From contig NZ_CP106855.1 in the NCBI RefSeq assembly GCF_002209355.2, positions 3,038,001 through 3,102,000 of the forward strand: DNA of 64,000 nucleotides, written 5' to 3'. Origin of the DNA: Bdellovibrio sp. SKB1291214. Its GTDB lineage: Bacteria > Bdellovibrionota > Bdellovibrionia > Bdellovibrionales > Bdellovibrionaceae. The position numbers and the translations under genes were made by a program. The notes under the pieces were generated by a model that saw only the letters and a program-made list of their open reading frames with translations, had not been told where the DNA came from and searched no databases. Shown one piece after another: positions 368 to 10,988 of the stretch; the stretch's first letter is position 1, and the number at the start of each line of letters is the position of its first letter.

Positions 368-2899
368 ATGAACAAAGGGGATTGTTTGAACCATCAAAGA
401 ACGTTTCATCAGCGATTGTTAAAGTCGCAACGAGGCTCCGTGCTGCTCTTGTCTGTTTTGGCAGGCATAGTGATCAGTATTATGTTCTTTGCTTCGATCG
501 GCTATATTGAAACGCAAGCCAAGGTTATGGAAAAAGCCGCGGTCAAGTCAGACCGTCGCGTGGTGATGGACGGTCTTTATGCTTACACGGTAAACGCTAT
601 TAAACAGAGCTGGTGTTTAACCGAGACTTGGGTTGAGGATCAAAACTGTTCGTTAACTCACGACAGAAACACTGTCCGCTTGAGTTTATCTGATGAGGCT
701 CTATTATTTATCCGCAACTCTGGCACCCCAGCTGCAACTCCGATTACAGCAACACGCCTCTCTTCTATGGGAACAACTATTATTTTGAGTTCGTTGCCGC
801 CATCTCATCCGCTGTATTCTATCGTGTCTCCTTTGGCTGGAGATTACTCAACGCTGAAATTTACAATTGAACGCGACTCTTCGGCGATCTCCGCGGTTAG
901 GGGTCGCGAAGTTCCCATAAAGATTACAATCTTTCTACAACATAAATCCAATACAGAATTTGATCAGACTTTGGTTTCTCGAAACATCATATATCCACGC
1001 GAACTCAGTTATTTCGGACTGATCCTTCCAAACAATCTGAGTCTCGCTTCCGGAAGCGATAATCCGCAAAAAGGCGATGTTAATTTCCCAAATATTGATG
1101 TACCAGCTGGAAGCGGTCTGCGTTTTGAAAGTCCGGTCTTTATCAATGGGGATCTTCGTCTCCCAAATAGCTCTTTCACAACTCCGATGAACAACGTTAC
1201 ATTCGTCGATAAAATCTTTTTAGCTGGCGTCGTCAGAATGGATGGCATGCAAGACGAAAATAAGTACATGGTGAAAACCGCGGGCGGTAAAGGCTACATG
1301 TACAATTACGAAATGCCGAACTTTGCAGGGCTGATGAATGGCTTTGAGATCGATCCCGCTCCAGATAAAGGTTTAAAGTATTTATTTAATCTTGGAGTTA
1401 CAGGTGATTCAGGCTACGACGCTCTTGCGCAGTGCCGCGATCGTTTGATGGCATCCTATCAACTATCTATCACGGACGACGCTCAGCTCTGGATCAGACC
1501 TGTTAAAAAAGAATCAAATAAAGTATCCGTGCAACTGAACTTGGGAAATACCGACAATTTTGTCGAGCAAGATATCGATGGTTATAAGACCACGACCACG
1601 GTTCCAAATATAACTGGTCCCGCTGCGGTCCCATCGAATGTCGCGGGTCAACCTGTGATGAAAGTTCAGGCCTATTACAATGGCCTGCAGGCGCCGGGTA
1701 CGCCGACCCGTGGTTCTTATTCTTCAGAATTTTACGTTTACAGAACCGGAACGACGACCGTCTATCCGACCGGAAACTCCGGCGGTGGCTCCATTGTTTT
1801 CCAAGCGACACCAAATGAAATCGGCAGTCGCGTGCAATACAACCAAGTTAATTTGGATATAACTTTTAATTCTCTGAACCTTGGACCTTACATCGCAGAA
1901 AATGGAAACGTCCTGACCTATCCTTCAGTTAAGTTTGTGTTTGAAGCCTATGACTACGGCTACAATGCCGGTGTGAACTTACGTAAATCGACGGCAAAAT
2001 ATCCAAAGAAAGTGAACGGTCTGACATTTAATTTGTCTGGTAGCGCTTTGGTTCTTGATTCCAGTCAAGGCAACACTTTCAGTGTCCCGACGATATGGGC
2101 TAATAATTCTGGTTTAGCAGATGATCAGGAAAACTATGCTTGGCCGTCCTCAGATGACACTTACAAAAAGAGACACGGTGTATCTGATACAAATTGGTCA
2201 GATTTCGATCAAAAGTGTTTTGCCACACCTTCTCCATCAGATCCAAATCCAGATTTCGCATCCTTCCCTGCTGCAAAATGGGATACAGATTTTTCGACAC
2301 AAGCTCGAAACTCTTGGAGCTTTGATACGGAGTTTAACCTGGATCCAATTCCAGGTTATAGAAATTCGACGATCCTTTACGATAATCCCCTTGATAATAC
2401 GTTCCATATCGATTCGTTAGTGAATACATGTTCAATTGGTCCGAATATAGATATATGGGCAGGAATGGTTGCGTGTGAAAAATTCGAAATTCGCCAGAGA
2501 CAACGTCCATTAAGAATCATAGGTACCGTGATTACCAAGCAGGTCGCCATTCATCAGAGCGCTTACGAAAAAGGGATTCGTTGGAGTACAATTTATCATC
2601 CACAAGCAACACAAGAATTGATTAATGCTGGAATTCTTGGAAAAGGTAAAGCTACAAAAGAAACAGTCGCCTGTGGTTCCGCTGCGGCCCCGCTTTGGCA
2701 GTCTAATATTGGCATAAACGATCGTTATATTCATTGGAATTGTAATCCGGTTAGCTTAAGAACAGCGGATCCGTTCAAATGGTCAACTGTTGACCCTGAC
2801 TGTGGTCTTCAAGACATCAAAGGTTCAACTGCAATTAAATGTAAAAAGAAAACGACTCGTTTCTTGATCAAAGAAATTAGCCGCGGGAAGGGGTTGTAG
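368..2899 (+). CDS. PilX/GspK-like exported pilin-like protein
   Basis: Large (843 aa) protein with a type IV pilin-like N-terminus: a basic leader ending QRG, then a single hydrophobic helix (SVLLLSVLAGIVISIMFFAS). The Glu normally at position +5 after the prepilin cleavage glycine is absent, as in GspK and some PilX proteins, which sit at pilus or pseudopilus tips. The remaining ~770 residues are a Thr/Ser/Asn-rich extracytoplasmic region with scattered cysteines; I recognise no enzyme domain there. It is far longer than usual minor pilins. First gene of a tight operon; the next starts one base after its stop. The start is uncertain: ATG at 368 has no ribosome binding site, whereas TTG at 386 follows AAAGGGG. 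Likely an assembly-tip component; the exact role is unknown. Confidence 0.7.
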   Translation: MNKGDCLNHQRTFHQRLLKSQRGSVLLLSVLAGIVISIMFFASIGYIETQAKVMEKAAVKSDRRVVMDGLYAYTVNAIKQSWCLTETWVEDQNCSLTHDRNTVRLSLSDEALLFIRNSGTPAATPITATRLSSMGTTIILSSLPPSHPLYSIVSPLAGDYSTLKFTIERDSSAISAVRGREVPIKITIFLQHKSNTEFDQTLVSRNIIYPRELSYFGLILPNNLSLASGSDNPQKGDVNFPNIDVPAGSGLRFESPVFINGDLRLPNSSFTTPMNNVTFVDKIFLAGVVRMDGMQDENKYMVKTAGGKGYMYNYEMPNFAGLMNGFEIDPAPDKGLKYLFNLGVTGDSGYDALAQCRDRLMASYQLSITDDAQLWIRPVKKESNKVSVQLNLGNTDNFVEQDIDGYKTTTTVPNITGPAAVPSNVAGQPVMKVQAYYNGLQAPGTPTRGSYSSEFYVYRTGTTTVYPTGNSGGGSIVFQATPNEIGSRVQYNQVNLDITFNSLNLGPYIAENGNVLTYPSVKFVFEAYDYGYNAGVNLRKSTAKYPKKVNGLTFNLSGSALVLDSSQGNTFSVPTIWANNSGLADDQENYAWPSSDDTYKKRHGVSDTNWSDFDQKCFATPSPSDPNPDFASFPAAKWDTDFSTQARNSWSFDTEFNLDPIPGYRNSTILYDNPLDNTFHIDSLVNTCSIGPNIDIWAGMVACEKFEIRQRQRPLRIIGTVITKQVAIHQSAYEKGIRWSTIYHPQATQELINAGILGKGKATKETVACGSAAAPLWQSNIGINDRYIHWNCNPVSLRTADPFKWSTVDPDCGLQDIKGSTAIKCKKKTTRFLIKEISRGKGL

Positions 2900-2900
2900 T

Positions 2901-3374
2901 ATGAACTTACGAAATAACCGCGGTTACACCATGGTCGAAATTTTAGCAGCGACAGTGATTACGGCAATCGTAAGCTACTCGACTTACTCTTATATTTCCT
3001 ATTTAGCGCGAGTGAGTTTTCAATTGAAGCTCTCACGAGTCGCCAATGATAACGTGCAAGCCATTGTTGAAAGCATTCGGTTTAATTTATCTTTGTACCA
3101 AGTGTCATTCAATCAAAGCATCTCCAAAGAAGAGGCAGTTTTGAAAGCAGATGCACTGCCATGGGGGCTTTCAAAGGGCGAAATGATTCCACGATCAGAT
3201 TGCGCAACTAAAGGATGCCAGGCCTATTTCGGCTACGTTATCATCCCAAGTCTATTTGTAAAAAACCTATATCAAGTTGATTTGAAGGTTGCGACGGCAG
3301 CTCAAAATAATTCGGCCATGAAGTGGAAGGAGGATCAGTGGAAAAAGTACACCTACTACATCACCGTCAAATAA
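2901..3374 (+). CDS. Type IV pilin-like minor pilin
   Basis: 157 aa. The N-terminus is a canonical class III prepilin signal: a short basic leader NNRG, cleavage after Gly, then YTMVE with Glu at +5 and a hydrophobic helix (ILAATVITAIVSYSTYSYIS). Such proteins are cleaved and methylated by PilD and packed into pili or type II secretion pseudopili. The mature part is small and contains a CATKGC pair that may form a disulphide. AAGGGG about 7 bases upstream supports the ATG. It overlaps the next pilin-like gene by 37 bases, so translation is probably coupled. Comparable to PilV/PilW or GspI/GspJ; which of these cannot be decided by eye. Confidence 0.8.
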   Translation: MNLRNNRGYTMVEILAATVITAIVSYSTYSYISYLARVSFQLKLSRVANDNVQAIVESIRFNLSLYQVSFNQSISKEEAVLKADALPWGLSKGEMIPRSDCATKGCQAYFGYVIIPSLFVKNLYQVDLKVATAAQNNSAMKWKEDQWKKYTYYITVK

Positions 3375-4414
3375 AGCCATCGTCTTCCTTTGTTAGCAAC
3401 CGACGGGGTGTAACCGTTACTGAACTTTTGGTGGTATTGGGAATGATTGGCATTGTTGCTATAGGCAATGCCTCCTTCCTATTCGACTTCACTAATGAAA
3501 TGAAAAAAATCACTGCAAATTCAGAAGGCGAAAGCGAGCTTTCCACCCTGAATATCGCGGCGGTGAATATTCTTAAAAAATCATCGGTCAGTTTTAACAA
3601 ACTGTATGCCCTTGATGATGGAGACGCTACTCGGCAAAACAAGCAGAACTTTTATGATTACTACCCTGATGTACCTCATGCTGTTCTAACTAGGTCCACT
3701 ATTCGTGCAGACCGAACAATTACTCTTAGCCCCACTGACAGCAAATACTTCTATTTGATTCAGTCCGAAGAAGCAGATTTTGACTCTCTCATTTATGATC
3801 CTATGTATGCTTATACAGTCACTTCAACACCTTCAGACCAAATTGCCAGCGGTACAATCAGGTACGAAGGACTGAACTCTATTCCAAACCTCCAAGGCCC
3901 GGGTGGAACCCAGTCGGCTAAGGGAACAATGACTAAGGTATTTCAAACACGTTGGGCCGACGGGACTTACTTTATGTTAAGTTGTCCCACTTATCTTCGG
4001 GCTATAGATGCAAAAAACAATACGGTGAGCATTTTAACACCTCCCCGCTTCCCATCTTTTTTAGGAAAAGTGGCCTCCGGTGATCTGTTACCAGCAAATT
4101 CTTCGGAAGTGGGCATACAATTCTATAACTCGAATCCCTTAGTGCCAACAGCTTCCTACACAAGTGTTGATAACTTTTTCAGAGTCCTCCCTGCGATCGG
4201 TGGGGCCGCTCCCTTCGTCAAAGTCGAACCAGTGAAAATGGTTCGTTTTGAATTCCGCACCAATTCCACAACTCAAAAGAACGAACTGTGGTTACAGGAA
4301 TTCACACAAGGTAAATATAAAGACAAAACTAAATTGATCGAAGAAATAAAAAACGTTGTCTTTAAGCGTTCTTCGATTTCCTTGCCAATTATTAGCATGG
4401 AGGTGGAACGATGA
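3338..4414 (+). CDS. Type IV pilin-like minor pilin (PilW/GspJ type)
   Basis: 358 aa if translation starts at GTG 3338, which sits 4 bases after AGGAGG; a GTG at 3323 is also possible. After a longer leader (MEKVHLLHHRQ... NRRG) comes the prepilin motif G-VTVTE with Glu at +5 and a hydrophobic helix (LLVVLGMIGIVAIGNASFLF). The mature domain of ~320 residues is large for a minor pilin, as in PilW and GspJ. The start lies inside the end of the previous pilin gene, and its stop overlaps the next start as ATGA, so four genes in a row are coupled. Predicted to be processed by the prepilin peptidase and to join a pilus or pseudopilus. Confidence 0.78.
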   Translation: MEKVHLLHHRQIKPSSSFVSNRRGVTVTELLVVLGMIGIVAIGNASFLFDFTNEMKKITANSEGESELSTLNIAAVNILKKSSVSFNKLYALDDGDATRQNKQNFYDYYPDVPHAVLTRSTIRADRTITLSPTDSKYFYLIQSEEADFDSLIYDPMYAYTVTSTPSDQIASGTIRYEGLNSIPNLQGPGGTQSAKGTMTKVFQTRWADGTYFMLSCPTYLRAIDAKNNTVSILTPPRFPSFLGKVASGDLLPANSSEVGIQFYNSNPLVPTASYTSVDNFFRVLPAIGGAAPFVKVEPVKMVRFEFRTNSTTQKNELWLQEFTQGKYKDKTKLIEEIKNVVFKRSSISLPIISMEVER

Positions 4415-5640
4415 AATCATTCCCTCTAACAAACTTTGTTTTAACATCTCTGTTGGCTAGCGCACCGGCTGTGGCTCAAGAAGTTAAAGCCAAGGCAAAT
4501 CCGAAAGTATCGTCGACAAGTGTGATTCCCTTCACGGGACCTAATTTAAATGACGTGGCCTTGGACTCGCAATTACTTACAAACGGATCCAACTCGTCCA
4601 CAGCCATATTGGATATCTATGTGAATTGTTTCGGTACCAATTTGCGTGCCGTTCCAAACCCTATTGCAGAATCCTCTGATATTTTCGCTAAAATCACATA
4701 CCTAACAAGCACGGGAACGAAAACTTTCGAAGTCAAATTCCCTGCAAGGGCAACAATGAACTCTGCGGCTTCAACAGAAGAAGACCTTACCAGTCAAACC
4801 CGAGTTCTGATTCCAGCGACGAAAGAAACATTAACGGCGCGCCTGCGCGGTAACTTGATTCGTATCAAGCTGACCGAGTCAAGGACAATTCCTGTTGACG
4901 TCTTAGCCACTGGAACTGACTTCGCGAAACTAACAGAGCTGGCAGTAAAAACTGAATTTTTAACCAACATAAGCTTCCGACAAGAGGTTCCAGCAGTGCT
5001 TCCCGCCAATACCGAATTTATGGCGTACACAGGCCCCGTAACGGCCGCGAACAACTGGTATGCCTCTGAAAATGGAAAGTCGATTGTTATGCTAGCGTCC
5101 TTCCCTGGGGAAAACAGATTTTGCGGAGGCTACTTTTCTCCGTTGGCTTTTAAATTCGACGGAGATGATCTTCCGAAGGTAGATAAAACATCACACTTCC
5201 CATTGTTTAGAAGTAAACACAAAATTTCTTGGCCCTCCTTCAAAGAAGATATTTACTTCTTGGCAGTCGATAAAAATAAAAATGGAAAAGTTGATGATGG
5301 TGCTGAGCTTTTTGGTGACATCAACAACTATCAGGATGGATTTAAAAACCTGGCCGCATATGACAACAATGGTGATGGTGTTATTGATGAAAAAGATTCG
5401 ATTTTTAAACTCCTGCTTTTATGGAAAGACAAAAACCATGATGGAAAAAGCAGTAAAGATGAACTAAAAACCATGGAACAAATGGGCGTGACATCCATCT
5501 CTTTAACTTATGATGGGACAACACAATCTGCCGGTCCATTTGCGAAGTTGATAGGCCCTGGAGAATTCACCTATAAATTAAAATCAGGTGAGGTCAAGAA
5601 AGGGCGCGTTTGGGATATTTTTCTTAAAATTGTACCTTAA
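4411..5640 (+). CDS. Exported EF-hand (calcium-binding) protein
   Basis: 409 aa with a clear Sec signal peptide (MKSFPLTNFVLTSLLASAPAVAQ). The C-terminal third holds three acidic loops typical of EF-hand or dockerin-like calcium sites: DKNKNGKVDDGAE at about residue 288, DNNGDGVIDEKD at about 320 and DKNHDGKSSKDE at about 344. The N-terminal ~230 residues are Ser/Thr-rich and unrecognised. It starts within the stop of the upstream pilin gene (ATGA). In classical minor pilin operons this position is taken by PilY1, a calcium-dependent tip adhesin; this protein is not PilY1 by sequence, but a similar calcium-controlled role is a reasonable inference. Confidence 0.75.
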   Translation: MKSFPLTNFVLTSLLASAPAVAQEVKAKANPKVSSTSVIPFTGPNLNDVALDSQLLTNGSNSSTAILDIYVNCFGTNLRAVPNPIAESSDIFAKITYLTSTGTKTFEVKFPARATMNSAASTEEDLTSQTRVLIPATKETLTARLRGNLIRIKLTESRTIPVDVLATGTDFAKLTELAVKTEFLTNISFRQEVPAVLPANTEFMAYTGPVTAANNWYASENGKSIVMLASFPGENRFCGGYFSPLAFKFDGDDLPKVDKTSHFPLFRSKHKISWPSFKEDIYFLAVDKNKNGKVDDGAELFGDINNYQDGFKNLAAYDNNGDGVIDEKDSIFKLLLLWKDKNHDGKSSKDELKTMEQMGVTSISLTYDGTTQSAGPFAKLIGPGEFTYKLKSGEVKKGRVWDIFLKIVP

Positions 5641-5671
5641 TTGAGATAGCATTTTTTGATGGGAGGAATCC

Positions 5672-6538
5672 ATGAAAAAGCAAACTCAAATCAGATGGAC
5701 AACAGGCGTTTTGCTTCTATTTATAATAGCCGTGATTTCCGAAACCGGCTTTTCTGGCACGAATGACGAAGGCCGGGATTCGAATGATCGCTGGGAAAAG
5801 CGTTTCAAAAAGGATAAGCCGGTAGCAACGGTGCCTGAAACGAAAGTTGAAATCACCTCCGAAAAGGTAAAGTATGGGGATGGCACGGCAGACTGTCGTG
5901 ATGCTTTCCTTGTGTTACCAATGCACTATGATCGTCCCGGTGATACTGAGACTTCTCGTTATCCTATTCAAGCATTAGGACATCTTAAAACTCAGAACTT
6001 GGATTGTACTAAGGCTCATCCCCCTTTATATAACGACGATGGTTTTGTTGTTACTAGCGGAAACATCACGGTTCAATGTAAAAATGGATCGGTTTTCATT
6101 CTGAATTCCAACTGCAAAGGCAAAACGATGGCTGAGTATCGTGCTGAACAGGAAGCGATAAGAATAGCCGAAGAAAAACGTAAAGCAGCTGAGGCTGCAG
6201 AAGCAGCAAGAATTGCTGAAGAAAAACGCAAAGCAGAAGAAGCAAGAATTGCAGCTGAAAAAGCAGCGGCAGAAAAAGCGGCAGCGGAGGCAGCTGCGGC
6301 TGCAGCTGCAGCTGCGGGTGGAAACTCCAGCAACCTACAATGCACGGGTTGTTCTGCGACTCCGACGTGCACAAGAACCACTGAAACACAGCACTCTAAG
6401 AATTCCTTTTCGTACAAAACTGTATATTACTATGCGTGCGCAAACGGGAATAGCTTATACCGAAGCAGTGCTACTGGCTCACAATCATGTGTTAAGGGTT
6501 CAGTGACTTGTTCTTCTTCGTCGTATAACGGTAAATAA
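5672..6538 (+). CDS. Exported Ala/Glu coiled-coil protein with Cys-rich C-terminus
   Basis: 288 aa. An N-terminal hydrophobic segment (TTGVLLLFIIAVISETGF) acts as a signal or anchor. A central domain (residues ~65-150) has several cysteines. Residues ~155-215 are a charged, repetitive helix built on the AEEKRKAAEAA pattern and ending in a run of alanines. The last ~65 residues are Cys- and Ser-rich (CTGCSATPTC). This resembles a stalk joining two small globular domains. The start has a strong ribosome binding site (GGGAGG). Its stop overlaps the next ATG by one base (TAATG). Not recognised as a named family; tied to the pilin operon by position. Confidence 0.7.
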   Translation: MKKQTQIRWTTGVLLLFIIAVISETGFSGTNDEGRDSNDRWEKRFKKDKPVATVPETKVEITSEKVKYGDGTADCRDAFLVLPMHYDRPGDTETSRYPIQALGHLKTQNLDCTKAHPPLYNDDGFVVTSGNITVQCKNGSVFILNSNCKGKTMAEYRAEQEAIRIAEEKRKAAEAAEAARIAEEKRKAEEARIAAEKAAAEKAAAEAAAAAAAAAGGNSSNLQCTGCSATPTCTRTTETQHSKNSFSYKTVYYYACANGNSLYRSSATGSQSCVKGSVTCSSSSYNGK

Positions 6539-8715
6539 TGGTTTTAAGCTTGGTGGCCCTGGCTTCAGGGCTTCTTAACTTATCCTCACAGGTGCTTTAT
6601 CAAAAGATCGTCTCAATGACCTTGGGCGATCTTTATATCACCTTCCTTCTTGTCACTTTGACCTTTATATTCGGTACAGCCCTTGGAAGTCTGATTGGCT
6701 TTAAAGTGCGCCGTCTTTTACCTTGGGTTGAGATTCTGACGGGCTTTTATAATTTAGCTCTGTTTTTCTTACTCTCTACTGAATTTTATAAAATCCAGCC
6801 ACCCCAGTTCTTAGTGGTCATTGGATTACTCGTTCCCGCCGTCTCTCTCGGTGTTCAACTTCCCCTGTACAGCTATTACCTTCGTCGCATACGATTTAAT
6901 TTTATCTATGGGCTTTACCATGGCGGCGCAATCCTGGGACTGTTAGCATTTGAGGTTTACTTTACCCAAGGGCTGTCTGTGAAATATGCAACACTTACCC
7001 TCGCATTAGGACAGATTTCGTTGGGACTTATTTTAGGCTTTTTGTTAAAGCATGATATCTTTCAAATCTCTCAAAGTCCTCGCGGAGTTTGGAGAACATT
7101 ATTTAAGCGCGGTATCGTCGAAATTCCATTCTCGGTTTTTTTAATTTCATTGCTTAGCTCGTACCAAATATTTTGGGCTCTTAAAACGCAGATTTTTTTA
7201 ACGGAAGCCTTTCGCCTTCATGCCACCCTTATATCGGCTGCAGTTTTTTTCTGGATGACAGTTGCTGGACTTAGCGAAAAATACCTACATCAAATTTCAC
7301 GATCCATCTTGTATTTCGCTTGGGGTTTTATCATTCTAATCACGCAGATTGCTTTTGCAACCTGGCCCTCATTTGTAACGGACCAGTTCACTGGAGAACT
7401 TCCCAACTATTTTATCTGGTCATCTGTCCTAGCCCTCTCCCTCACCTTACCCGTTTTGATTTCCAGTTTAGTGTTTATTAAAAGCACTCAAGAATTAGCA
7501 CATAGCATTGCCATCGACCAATCCAGTGGATATTTGAATGCACTGGCATGCCTGGGAAATATTCTTGGAATGACCGCTGCTGCTTTGATGGCTCCCCTTT
7601 TGTGGAGTAATCTCTATTTCGCGTCGGCGCTGGCCCTGCTGATTGCGGGCATCGTAACCCTCACATATTTTAACAAAAGATACTCTGAAAGTTCATGGGG
7701 CTTCGGTCTTCTCGCCTTACTCGCTTTAATAGCTTTTCAACAAAATCCCACTGACAACCTTTTCAAAAATCGATTTGAAAAGAAAAACCGCGAAAATCCG
7801 ATCCATGCGCAAGTTTATTCCGAAGCCTTCTCGACAATTGCTGTTTTAGAAGATCCATTTACTCCAAATGGAAAACTGAGCCGTCATTATATCATCGATG
7901 GACACCGATCCCACGATCTTGAACGAGGTACCGAAAACTTAATTGGTCTTTTTCCAAGAAAATATTTTCCATCGACATTAAACAAATCAATGGTGATTGG
8001 CGTAGGTACTGGACAAACTTCCTGGGGAGTTTCTGCCATCAGCGAACATACAGACCTGATTGAGATCTCTCCGACTGTTTTAGATAATTTAAAACTGTTT
8101 AAAGAATATAATAACGATCTTGCGAACAGAAAGAACATCGCCATTCACCTGACGGATGGAATGACATTTTTAAAAAACTGTCCCGCGCACACCTATGATC
8201 TAATAGTCAACACCGCCACATATCCCGGTAATTTCAATGCCGCTAAACTATATACGACTGAATTCGTAGAACTTGCTGCCAGATGCCTGGGCGATACAGG
8301 TATTTATCAAACCTATTTTGATGACTCAACTGTGCAATCTTGGGAACAGCTAGCGAATTTCTTAGCTCCACTGCAGGCCCATTTTAAGCACATCGATATT
8401 ATCTCTGGGAACTATCCAATCGTGATGGCTTACAATACCGAACGATCGCTGAGCCAAGGCTCCTGGGAGGAATTTTTAACAGAGTTGGATTTAAAGTTCT
8501 ATAAAGAAAACTTACAAAGCAAAATAGTGTTTAATTTAGAGTGCAATGATATCCAACGCAACATCCCCATTTATCCCGATGGAGAAATGAACACGCTCGA
8601 TAAGTCTGTCCTGGAAGCGACCTCTATTCGCAACATTATCCGACAAACTTATCAACGTAAGTATTATCTATTTGCGGACTATGCAAAACTCCAAACCCCT
8701 GTCTCTTGTTTTTAG
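6538..8715 (+). CDS. Membrane protein fused to spermidine-synthase-like domain (copy 1)
   Basis: 725 aa. The first ~405 residues are a string of about ten hydrophobic segments. The last ~300 form a Rossmann-like methyltransferase/aminopropyltransferase fold: a nucleotide-binding glycine motif (VIGVGTGQTSWG) at about residue 484, an acidic strand end (LIEISPTVLD), and LTDGMTFL corresponding to the second binding strand. The catalytic region, normally DSTDP in spermidine synthase, reads NTATYP, so the catalytic Asp is missing and polyamine synthesis is unlikely. Its ATG overlaps the stop of the exported-protein gene before it, so it belongs to the pilin-like operon. Its 3' end overlaps the convergent copy 2. 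Automated annotation as spermidine synthase would overstate the function. Confidence 0.75.
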   Translation: MVLSLVALASGLLNLSSQVLYQKIVSMTLGDLYITFLLVTLTFIFGTALGSLIGFKVRRLLPWVEILTGFYNLALFFLLSTEFYKIQPPQFLVVIGLLVPAVSLGVQLPLYSYYLRRIRFNFIYGLYHGGAILGLLAFEVYFTQGLSVKYATLTLALGQISLGLILGFLLKHDIFQISQSPRGVWRTLFKRGIVEIPFSVFLISLLSSYQIFWALKTQIFLTEAFRLHATLISAAVFFWMTVAGLSEKYLHQISRSILYFAWGFIILITQIAFATWPSFVTDQFTGELPNYFIWSSVLALSLTLPVLISSLVFIKSTQELAHSIAIDQSSGYLNALACLGNILGMTAAALMAPLLWSNLYFASALALLIAGIVTLTYFNKRYSESSWGFGLLALLALIAFQQNPTDNLFKNRFEKKNRENPIHAQVYSEAFSTIAVLEDPFTPNGKLSRHYIIDGHRSHDLERGTENLIGLFPRKYFPSTLNKSMVIGVGTGQTSWGVSAISEHTDLIEISPTVLDNLKLFKEYNNDLANRKNIAIHLTDGMTFLKNCPAHTYDLIVNTATYPGNFNAAKLYTTEFVELAARCLGDTGIYQTYFDDSTVQSWEQLANFLAPLQAHFKHIDIISGNYPIVMAYNTERSLSQGSWEEFLTELDLKFYKENLQSKIVFNLECNDIQRNIPIYPDGEMNTLDKSVLEATSIRNIIRQTYQRKYYLFADYAKLQTPVSCF

Positions 8716-10988
8716 TAGTCCTTTGGATAAGTCAAAAACAAGTCCGTCGCATTTGTACGACTAGTCTCTACAAGTAGATTATCATCGGTTACAAACATGG
8801 GTGGACGAGGTGACTCAGCACGCACATAGTCCACCCAAGCTTTCGCGAGACCTTCAGCGCGACTGAAATCATCTGAGGAAGCTAACATCGCCCCCCTCCA
8901 AGTCACCGTCGGCAAAAGAGGCTTTACAACTTCCAGGGAAATCTCGGACCACTCGGGCAACGGATTTTTGCTACCAACAAAAATCACGCCGTCACTGGAG
9001 TATCCGGGCATAACGCGATAATAAGGAAATGACGAGACAGCCGTATGAACTAGCGCTGTCAAATCGCGAGGGGCACCAAACATCAGCTGAGCATAAATTC
9101 CACCAGGTTTTAAGTGCTCCTGTACCATTTTATAAAATTCTTTAGACATCAAATACGTCGTTCCAGGGCCATATGGATCGACGTTCACAGTAATGATATC
9201 CCATTTTTTATTAGATAGACCGATAAAGCTTCTTCCGTCATCGGCGACATTTTTTACGCGTGGATCGTTTAAATAGGAATTGTCTTTGAAGCGCAGTTCG
9301 CTTTGCGCCTTCATAACCAGAGGAAGGATATCAACACTGGTAATCTGTTTAATTTGAGGGATGCGGCTGAAGGCCTCTGTTGTAAGACCGTATCCCATCC
9401 CCACCACAAGGACTTCGTCCAAGTTTTTAGCAAATGCCGTTGGAAATAATGCCAAGCTTTTTTGTACAGTGGACGTTTCTCCGAATCCGTAAGGAGCCAC
9501 CAGCGAGGTGTAGTTATGAAACATCGCCCATCGATCCGCGGCGACGCCTTGCTGTTCATTAGATTTTAAAGGAATTACATTCAAGTATCCAAACTCATCT
9601 TCAGCCTCAAACAGGGCCGATCCCGCGGGGTTTAAACTCATGGATCGCGTTCCTATAAAGAGGATCAACAAACAGGAAACCACAACTGAAGAAATACGTG
9701 AGGCACCTCGTAAAAACAAAGCCGAACCAACAACACCCAATACAAGCAAAGACACATAAAGAAGCTTAAGACTTCCAACCGTACCCAACCATGAAAACAG
9801 CAAATAAGTCGTTAGCATACTTCCTAAAACAGAGGCAAACGTATTGATGTAAACAGAATATGAAAGGCTGCGCGTTTTCTGCAGCTGTGTACTCATTCCA
9901 GTTTGAATGACTTTCAGTGATAAAGGGAAGCAAAGCCCCAATAGCAGTCCTGGCAAAATCGCTATGAAAAGCAAAACGCCCCAGTAAATGAGTCTCATCG
10001 ACTTGGCATAGGGATGACTTAGATCCACACCAATGGCTACCGCAGAAGGAAGCAAAATAAATCCTATCGCAGCACAAAAACCCGTCATACGTAAAATAAA
10101 TAAAACCGCGGCCAATTGTTTATCAGTCGCCAGTTTTGACAGACGAGGGCTTAAAAATGCCCCAATTGCTAACGTTAAAAGCAAAACAGAAAGGACAACA
10201 GAATGGACGTAAACACGTCCACCTAAAAAGAGGTGACCCAGTCGAAACCAAATTTGCTCAAGACTTAAAACAAAGAATCCGCTTAAACCACTTAAACACA
10301 TCGCCCAAACTTTAATTTTTCCAGGGGAAAGCGCTTCTACAGAGGTCGAAGACTGACGGTCCTCTCCTGATGCCTCAGCTTTAGACGTGAAAACATATTT
10401 TTCTTTGTAAAATAGTGCCGCAGCCAACAGATTAAGAATAAATCCACAGATGAGCGCTCCGGAAAGCCCAAAATTGTAGATCAGGACCACATAAGAGCAA
10501 AGAGCGCCCAGCGCGCCGCCTAAGCAGTTGGCAGCGTAAAGCCACTGATGCTCTTTTGATGATGAGAACTTGTAACTCATGAAAGGATAAGAAAGCCCCA
10601 TCAAAAAGGTCGCCGGGAAAATAAATACGCCAGACATAATGAAATGACTTAAAAGTTTTGGCAGAGGGCTGTCTTTTAAAATTTGCGCCAGTTGCTGGTG
10701 GGCGCCGAAGAGGAAGATGGCCCCTAAGCCGATCACTAATACAATCGCTATTTCACAGATAGAATATAGAGGCAGTTGTTTTTTAGAATCGCGTTGCAAA
10801 AAGCGCGGAGCTGCTGCCGTCCCTAACCCCAGGCCCAACATAAAATGAGCGATCACACAGGAAATCGAAAGCGTTGTTCCACCCAATAAGGAAGAAAAAA
10901 GACGAATCCAAAGTACTTGATAAAGAAGTCCCGAAAAGCCAGTTAGGAACATGGCAATCATACCCAGTCTGAATATTTTTGTTTTCAG
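8712..10988 (-). CDS. Membrane protein fused to spermidine-synthase-like domain (copy 2)
   Basis: About 758 aa. Some twelve membrane segments (GFSGLLYQVLWIRLFSSLLGG near the start is typical of fused MFS/spermidine synthase proteins) are followed by a C-terminal synthase-like domain: VVGMGYGLTTEA glycine loop, VDILP acidic strand end, and VNVDPYGPG where spermidine synthases have DSTDPVGP. The first Asp is Asn here, but the following DP.GP is kept, so this copy is the closest to a true enzyme. Start: the first ATG (10961) has no ribosome binding site, but AAGGAGGAG lies just before in-frame ATT (10991) and CTG (10988); CTG gives the better spacing. It is divergent from a small membrane protein gene and convergent with copy 1. 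Confidence 0.75.
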   Translation of the reverse strand: MKTKIFRLGMIAMFLTGFSGLLYQVLWIRLFSSLLGGTTLSISCVIAHFMLGLGLGTAAAPRFLQRDSKKQLPLYSICEIAIVLVIGLGAIFLFGAHQQLAQILKDSPLPKLLSHFIMSGVFIFPATFLMGLSYPFMSYKFSSSKEHQWLYAANCLGGALGALCSYVVLIYNFGLSGALICGFILNLLAAALFYKEKYVFTSKAEASGEDRQSSTSVEALSPGKIKVWAMCLSGLSGFFVLSLEQIWFRLGHLFLGGRVYVHSVVLSVLLLTLAIGAFLSPRLSKLATDKQLAAVLFILRMTGFCAAIGFILLPSAVAIGVDLSHPYAKSMRLIYWGVLLFIAILPGLLLGLCFPLSLKVIQTGMSTQLQKTRSLSYSVYINTFASVLGSMLTTYLLFSWLGTVGSLKLLYVSLLVLGVVGSALFLRGASRISSVVVSCLLILFIGTRSMSLNPAGSALFEAEDEFGYLNVIPLKSNEQQGVAADRWAMFHNYTSLVAPYGFGETSTVQKSLALFPTAFAKNLDEVLVVGMGYGLTTEAFSRIPQIKQITSVDILPLVMKAQSELRFKDNSYLNDPRVKNVADDGRSFIGLSNKKWDIITVNVDPYGPGTTYLMSKEFYKMVQEHLKPGGIYAQLMFGAPRDLTALVHTAVSSFPYYRVMPGYSSDGVIFVGSKNPLPEWSEISLEVVKPLLPTVTWRGAMLASSDDFSRAEGLAKAWVDYVRAESPRPPMFVTDDNLLVETSRTNATDLFLTYPKDY

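Follow-up and report, generated by a model that had tools for sequence, protein, structure and literature searches.

The question raised by this locus is which protein occupies the position of PilY1 at the end of a minor-pilin operon in Bdellovibrio sp. SKB1291214, and what the whole gene set could do for its host. All five open reading frames proposed in the earlier note were confirmed at their positions in the window, that is, the whole analyzed stretch of 64,000 nucleotides, and all lie on one strand (+). They encode pX (368..2899, 843 aa), pV (2901..3374, 157 aa), pW (3338..4414), a putative exported calcium protein of 409 aa similar to the self-processing module (SPM) of the Neisseria protein FrpC (4411..5640), and a stalk-like protein of 288 aa (5672..6538). 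The genes are tightly packed: pX and pV are 1 bp apart, the starts of pW and of the SPM gene overlap the preceding genes, and a 31-bp gap separates the SPM gene from the last one. The start of pW is most likely the GTG at 3338, downstream of AAGGAGG at 3327-3333, which gives a leader ending in SNRRG/VTVTE (the slash marks the cleavage site). Promoter and terminator scans gave no better signal than shuffled sequence.

The three coupled pilin-like genes were found as the note had described them. Both pV (G/YTMVE) and pW (RRG/VTVTE) carry class III prepilin signals; the N_methyl family PF07963 matches pV above the Pfam cut-off (E 4.9e-5) and pW below it. In the family alignments, Gly-1, Glu+5, and two cysteines are invariant in pV, as are Gly-1 (Gly24) and Glu+5 (Glu29) in pW. 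The large protein pX stands in the PilX/GspK position and has the two features of a tip-type pilin, namely, no Glu+5 in the cleavage region (G/SVLLLS) and a long hydrophobic N-terminal pilin helix (residues 22-79 of the AF2 model). Its homologs, of approximately 830-1060 aa, are located upstream of pV, pW, and the SPM gene in 57 loci. No Pfam family matches pX of the window, only chance coiled-coil matches were obtained for 26 family members, and the GspK domain PF03934 matches none of these 26. Since the pX model also has no Foldseek match among solved structures, its pilin nature is deduced from the N-terminus and the gene context. A fourth minor pilin of the FimU/GspH type is not present in the cassette.

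The 409-aa protein consists of a signal peptide, a unique beta domain (approximately residues 60-240), and an FrpC-type SPM domain (244-405). The Sec signal peptide, identified by inspection, and the three EF-hand-like loops agree with the previous description; the loops are D287-E299 (5269..5307, corresponding to FrpC D462-E474), D318-D329 (5362..5397), and D340-E351 (5428..5463), all on the + strand. Though Pfam yields only weak EF-hand matches, a phmmer search against the sequences of solved structures aligns residues 244-388 with the FrpC self-processing module (PDB 6sjw, E 2.1e-19). The AF2 model, built from a 36-member alignment (mean pLDDT 78, pTM 0.63), leads to the same fold: the SPM structures 6sjw and 6sjx, with their EF-hand-like loops, are the sole Foldseek matches better than 0.001 (E approximately 4e-11, 3.8e-11 for 6sjw; TMt 0.75). 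The N-terminal domain has no neighbor among solved structures. The note had not recognized the FrpC SPM fold of the EF-hand region. The two cysteines of the window protein, C73 and C238, are invariant in the family and probably form a disulfide, which would connect the N-terminal domain with the residues immediately ahead of the Ser243-Pro244 site (codons at 5137..5142, +).

The combination of these genes is not limited to the window. Among 67 SPM-like open reading frames examined across Bdellovibrionota, 57 sit in complete cassettes with the order pX-pV-pW-SPM, where the gap between pW and the SPM gene is mostly -3 to 39 bp; in three further loci (L063, L096, and L100) the SPM gene comes first. 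Between them, the complete and SPM-first cassettes that were read represent nine families of the phylum, and named hosts include Bdellovibrio, Pseudobdellovibrio, and a MAG labeled Bacteriovorax stolpii. The family profile matches 85 of 291 phylum genomes at E 1e-10, a count that includes stand-alone SPM domains. The recurrence of this gene order in 57 loci, together with the match to the calcium-binding FrpC module in both sequence and fold, shows that the EF-hand loops are not a chance resemblance.

A genome can contain more than one cassette. In the genome of the window a second one (L003) lies approximately 27 kb upstream of the first; two loci were found in B. bacteriovorus strain kdesi and two cassettes in the genome G006. 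The tree of the 57 SPM proteins has three supported clades within Bdellovibrio, here called A (including the window), B, and C. At L048, L049, and L050 the whole four-gene cassette is tandemly duplicated, with two subtype-B copies head to tail. A complete cassette at L098 has as its immediate neighbor a gene (L098:10182-12413, -) whose 743-aa product combines an SPM domain with an N-terminus resembling that of a lipoprotein. Two more unassigned minor-pilin-like clusters, L132:6995-10268 and L137:3113-5666, share one genome.

The co-inheritance of the four genes was assessed by comparing distances between SPM proteins with those between pX, pV, or pW proteins in genomes with at least two cassettes, the null model being 1000 runs with partners shuffled within each genome. 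The observed correlations are 0.96-0.97 for all three pairs; the shuffled ones average approximately 0.31 and peak at 0.79, and the observed value was attained in none of the 1000 runs. The four genes therefore travel together and their products are inherited as a unit, which also suggests partner specificity between the pilins and the SPM protein. The gene set is old, occurs across the phylum, and has paralogous copies.

Two identities with known systems were considered and rejected. The 409-aa protein is not PilY1, as the beta-propeller domain PF05567 does not match it; the gene order and this result agree with the proposal of a minor-pilin operon having a calcium protein other than PilY1 in the PilY1 position. 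The genome and phylum searches with PF05567 gave zero matches, but the control genomes likewise gave none above the cut-off, which makes this zero a weak indication that PilY1 is absent from the genome. Neither is the cassette the type II secretion system (T2SS), which is complete, has its own five pseudopilins GspG-K, and is encoded by a separate gspD-N locus; PF03934 has three genomic matches, none of them in the cassettes. The reading of the operon as distinct from type II secretion is supported.

Nevertheless, the three pilins could form a dedicated pseudopilus of the T2SS type that pushes the SPM protein out or binds it as a secretion substrate, with the SPM protein acting after release. 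The absence of Glu+5 in pX, as in GspK, the full T2SS of the genome, which could supply the machine, and the ordinary signal peptide of the SPM protein would all suit such a role. We consider it unlikely, because the T2SS locus already has GspG-K, the cassette contains no ATPase, platform, secretin, or other pilus assembly gene, and strict one-to-one co-inheritance is more readily explained by a structural partner than by a substrate in transit. Less probable still is a domesticated set with no role in a pilus, for instance, a calcium-binding complex of the cell surface or an envelope-stress complex. Several stand-alone SPM-like proteins of the phylum do lack pilin neighbors, but the invariant Gly-1 and Glu+5 of the canonical prepilin signals in pV and pW and the ordered three-pilin set in 57 loci speak against it.

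In the 57 cassette SPM proteins, numbered by FrpC position, loop 2 has Asp at D499 and D510 in all 57 and Asn501 and Asp503 in 56; loop 3 has Asp at D521, an acidic residue at E532, and the adjacent W519, each in 57/57. With almost no variation in loops 2 and 3 or at W519, calcium binding has very probably been retained. The site for a fourth calcium ion (D419, D421, D423, and D456) is incomplete, with Phe at 419 in 51/57 and Gly at 456 in 45/57, though the equivalents of 421 and 423 are still mostly acidic in what is a loosely aligned stretch. In FrpC, the Asp414-Pro415 bond comes under strain as the module folds with calcium, and the carbonyl of Asp414 is attacked by the carboxylate of the same residue; the reaction passes via a cyclic imide and an anhydride, the latter linking to lysine, and requires this carboxylate (PMC7078468). 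Pro415 is retained in all 57 cassette proteins, whereas the Asp414 site is occupied by Ser in 56 of them. Given this replacement of the scissile Asp-Pro by Ser-Pro, the clip function has very probably been lost, and the protein is to be regarded as an SPM-fold homolog outside the active self-processing class: the domain would be a calcium-dependent structural or adhesive module and not a clip-and-link enzyme. The single exception with Asp-Pro is encoded by L071:3585-4832 (-).

That the domain is still a clip-and-link enzyme, in which calcium would break the bond before Pro244 (or Ser243) and link the tip to another protein, is very improbable. In its favor are the invariant Pro with an almost constant Ser before it, a conservation unusual in an inactive site, the fold retained according to Foldseek, and Asp-Pro in L071; against it, the required Asp carboxylate is missing in 56/57, and D419 and D456 of the fourth calcium site are lost as well. 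A related speculation, to which we assign even less credence, is that the conserved Ser-Pro at the strained turn is itself reactive, so that external calcium would make a peptide bond rearrange or break at the tip of the pilus; this would be calcium-triggered, possibly covalent tip chemistry in predators, different from the Asp-Pro clip-and-link reaction.

The window cassette belongs to subtype A, a rarer subtype, whose unit extends to position 8715. The stalk-like protein, previously listed as the fifth gene of the operon, is a real open reading frame but an accessory of this subtype rather than a general cassette member. It has a signal or transmembrane segment, a Cys-rich module, an Ala/Glu/Lys-rich linker, and a Cys-rich C-terminus; the flanking Cys modules are conserved in the alignment and the middle is variable. 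Its stop codon overlaps the start of a second accessory gene (6538..8715, +), encoding a 725-aa membrane protein with a spermidine-synthase-like domain (PF01564, E 1.5e-9). All five A loci with enough flanking sequence (L037-L041) carry homologs of both, the membrane proteins being 724-745 aa long, and neither was found in any other cassette locus examined. This gene of the window is convergent with another one encoding a membrane protein with a spermidine-synthase-like domain (8712-10961, -). A further minor-pilin cluster (L133:2194-9129) encodes prepilins of 1010 and 341 aa and a 254-aa protein, followed by multi-pass proteins of 231 and 547 aa that resemble by eye the spermidine-synthase-like membrane proteins; phmmer with the two window proteins gave no match in this region.

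Sequence and context taken together, we think that the cassette probably encodes a priming and tip complex of a type IV pilus, stabilized by calcium and exchangeable between paralogous cassettes. The proteins pX, pV, and pW would form a minor-pilin trimer with pX outermost, and the exported SPM-like protein would bind pX and cap the tip in the place of PilY1. Extracytoplasmic calcium could make the SPM domain fold around three calcium ions, thus fixing the shape of the tip protein, while the unique domain at its N-terminus, together with the variable domains of pX, would be exposed. Subtype A adds the stalk-like protein and the spermidine-synthase-like membrane protein. What the analysis establishes is gene content, homology, conservation, and co-inheritance; complex formation, the position at the tip, a functional dependence on calcium, and any part in prey contact are all predictions. 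The genome has a PilA-type major pilin and, above cut-off, a PilT-family ATPase. The cassette itself lacks pilus assembly genes, and the assignment to a type IVa pilus rather than another machine is an inference. The simplest reading is that paralogous cassettes, two or three to a genome, supply this pilus with alternative tips. The type IVa pilus is needed for prey entry in strain HD100 (PMC3818213). A role of the cassette in prey attachment is plausible.

In the literature searched, with subscription papers mostly outside its scope, we found no description of SPM domains in a pilus system and no account of pilus tip composition in Bdellovibrionota; the passages covered of the Bdellovibrio literature on EF-hand proteins, PilY1, minor pilins, and pseudopilins do not describe these genes. 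What is new here is that, in a predicted tip operon of minor pilins, the place of PilY1 is taken by a calcium protein with the SPM fold. This provides the phylum with a conserved, paralogous pilus-tip candidate, found in a named strain with a complete genome, and a case of the FrpC SPM fold used in a pilus-type operon with the cleavage residue replaced.

Several known systems share features with the cassette. The SPMs of the RTX proteins FrpC and ApxIVA (6sjw, 6sjx) have the same fold, three EF-hand-like loops, W519, and the invariant Pro415, but the cassette protein differs in the replaced Asp414 and the lost fourth calcium site, and it has a Sec signal peptide and a pilin operon instead of an RTX protein and type I secretion. 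The GspK-GspI-GspJ set of the T2SS also comprises three pilins with a large member devoid of Glu+5; however, pX has no PF03934 domain and the genome has its separate, complete T2SS with GspK. A parallel in gene order is the PilX-PilV-PilW(-FimU)-PilY1 operon of type IVa pili, whose last gene likewise encodes an exported non-pilin protein that binds calcium, though here this protein is SPM-like, approximately 400 aa long, and has no PF05567 match, pX is a protein of approximately 830-1060 aa with no Pfam match, and the pilins are three, not four. Paralogous clusters within one genome are common to these cassettes and to the minor-pilin/PilY1 clusters that form tips in Myxococcus xanthus (PMC13190605). 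Finally, the four exchangeable Kil tips of Myxococcus (PMC12075869) are likewise paralogous tip complexes of a predator, but they belong to a Tad (Flp) pilus, whereas the cassettes described here combine GFxxxE-type prepilins with an SPM protein.
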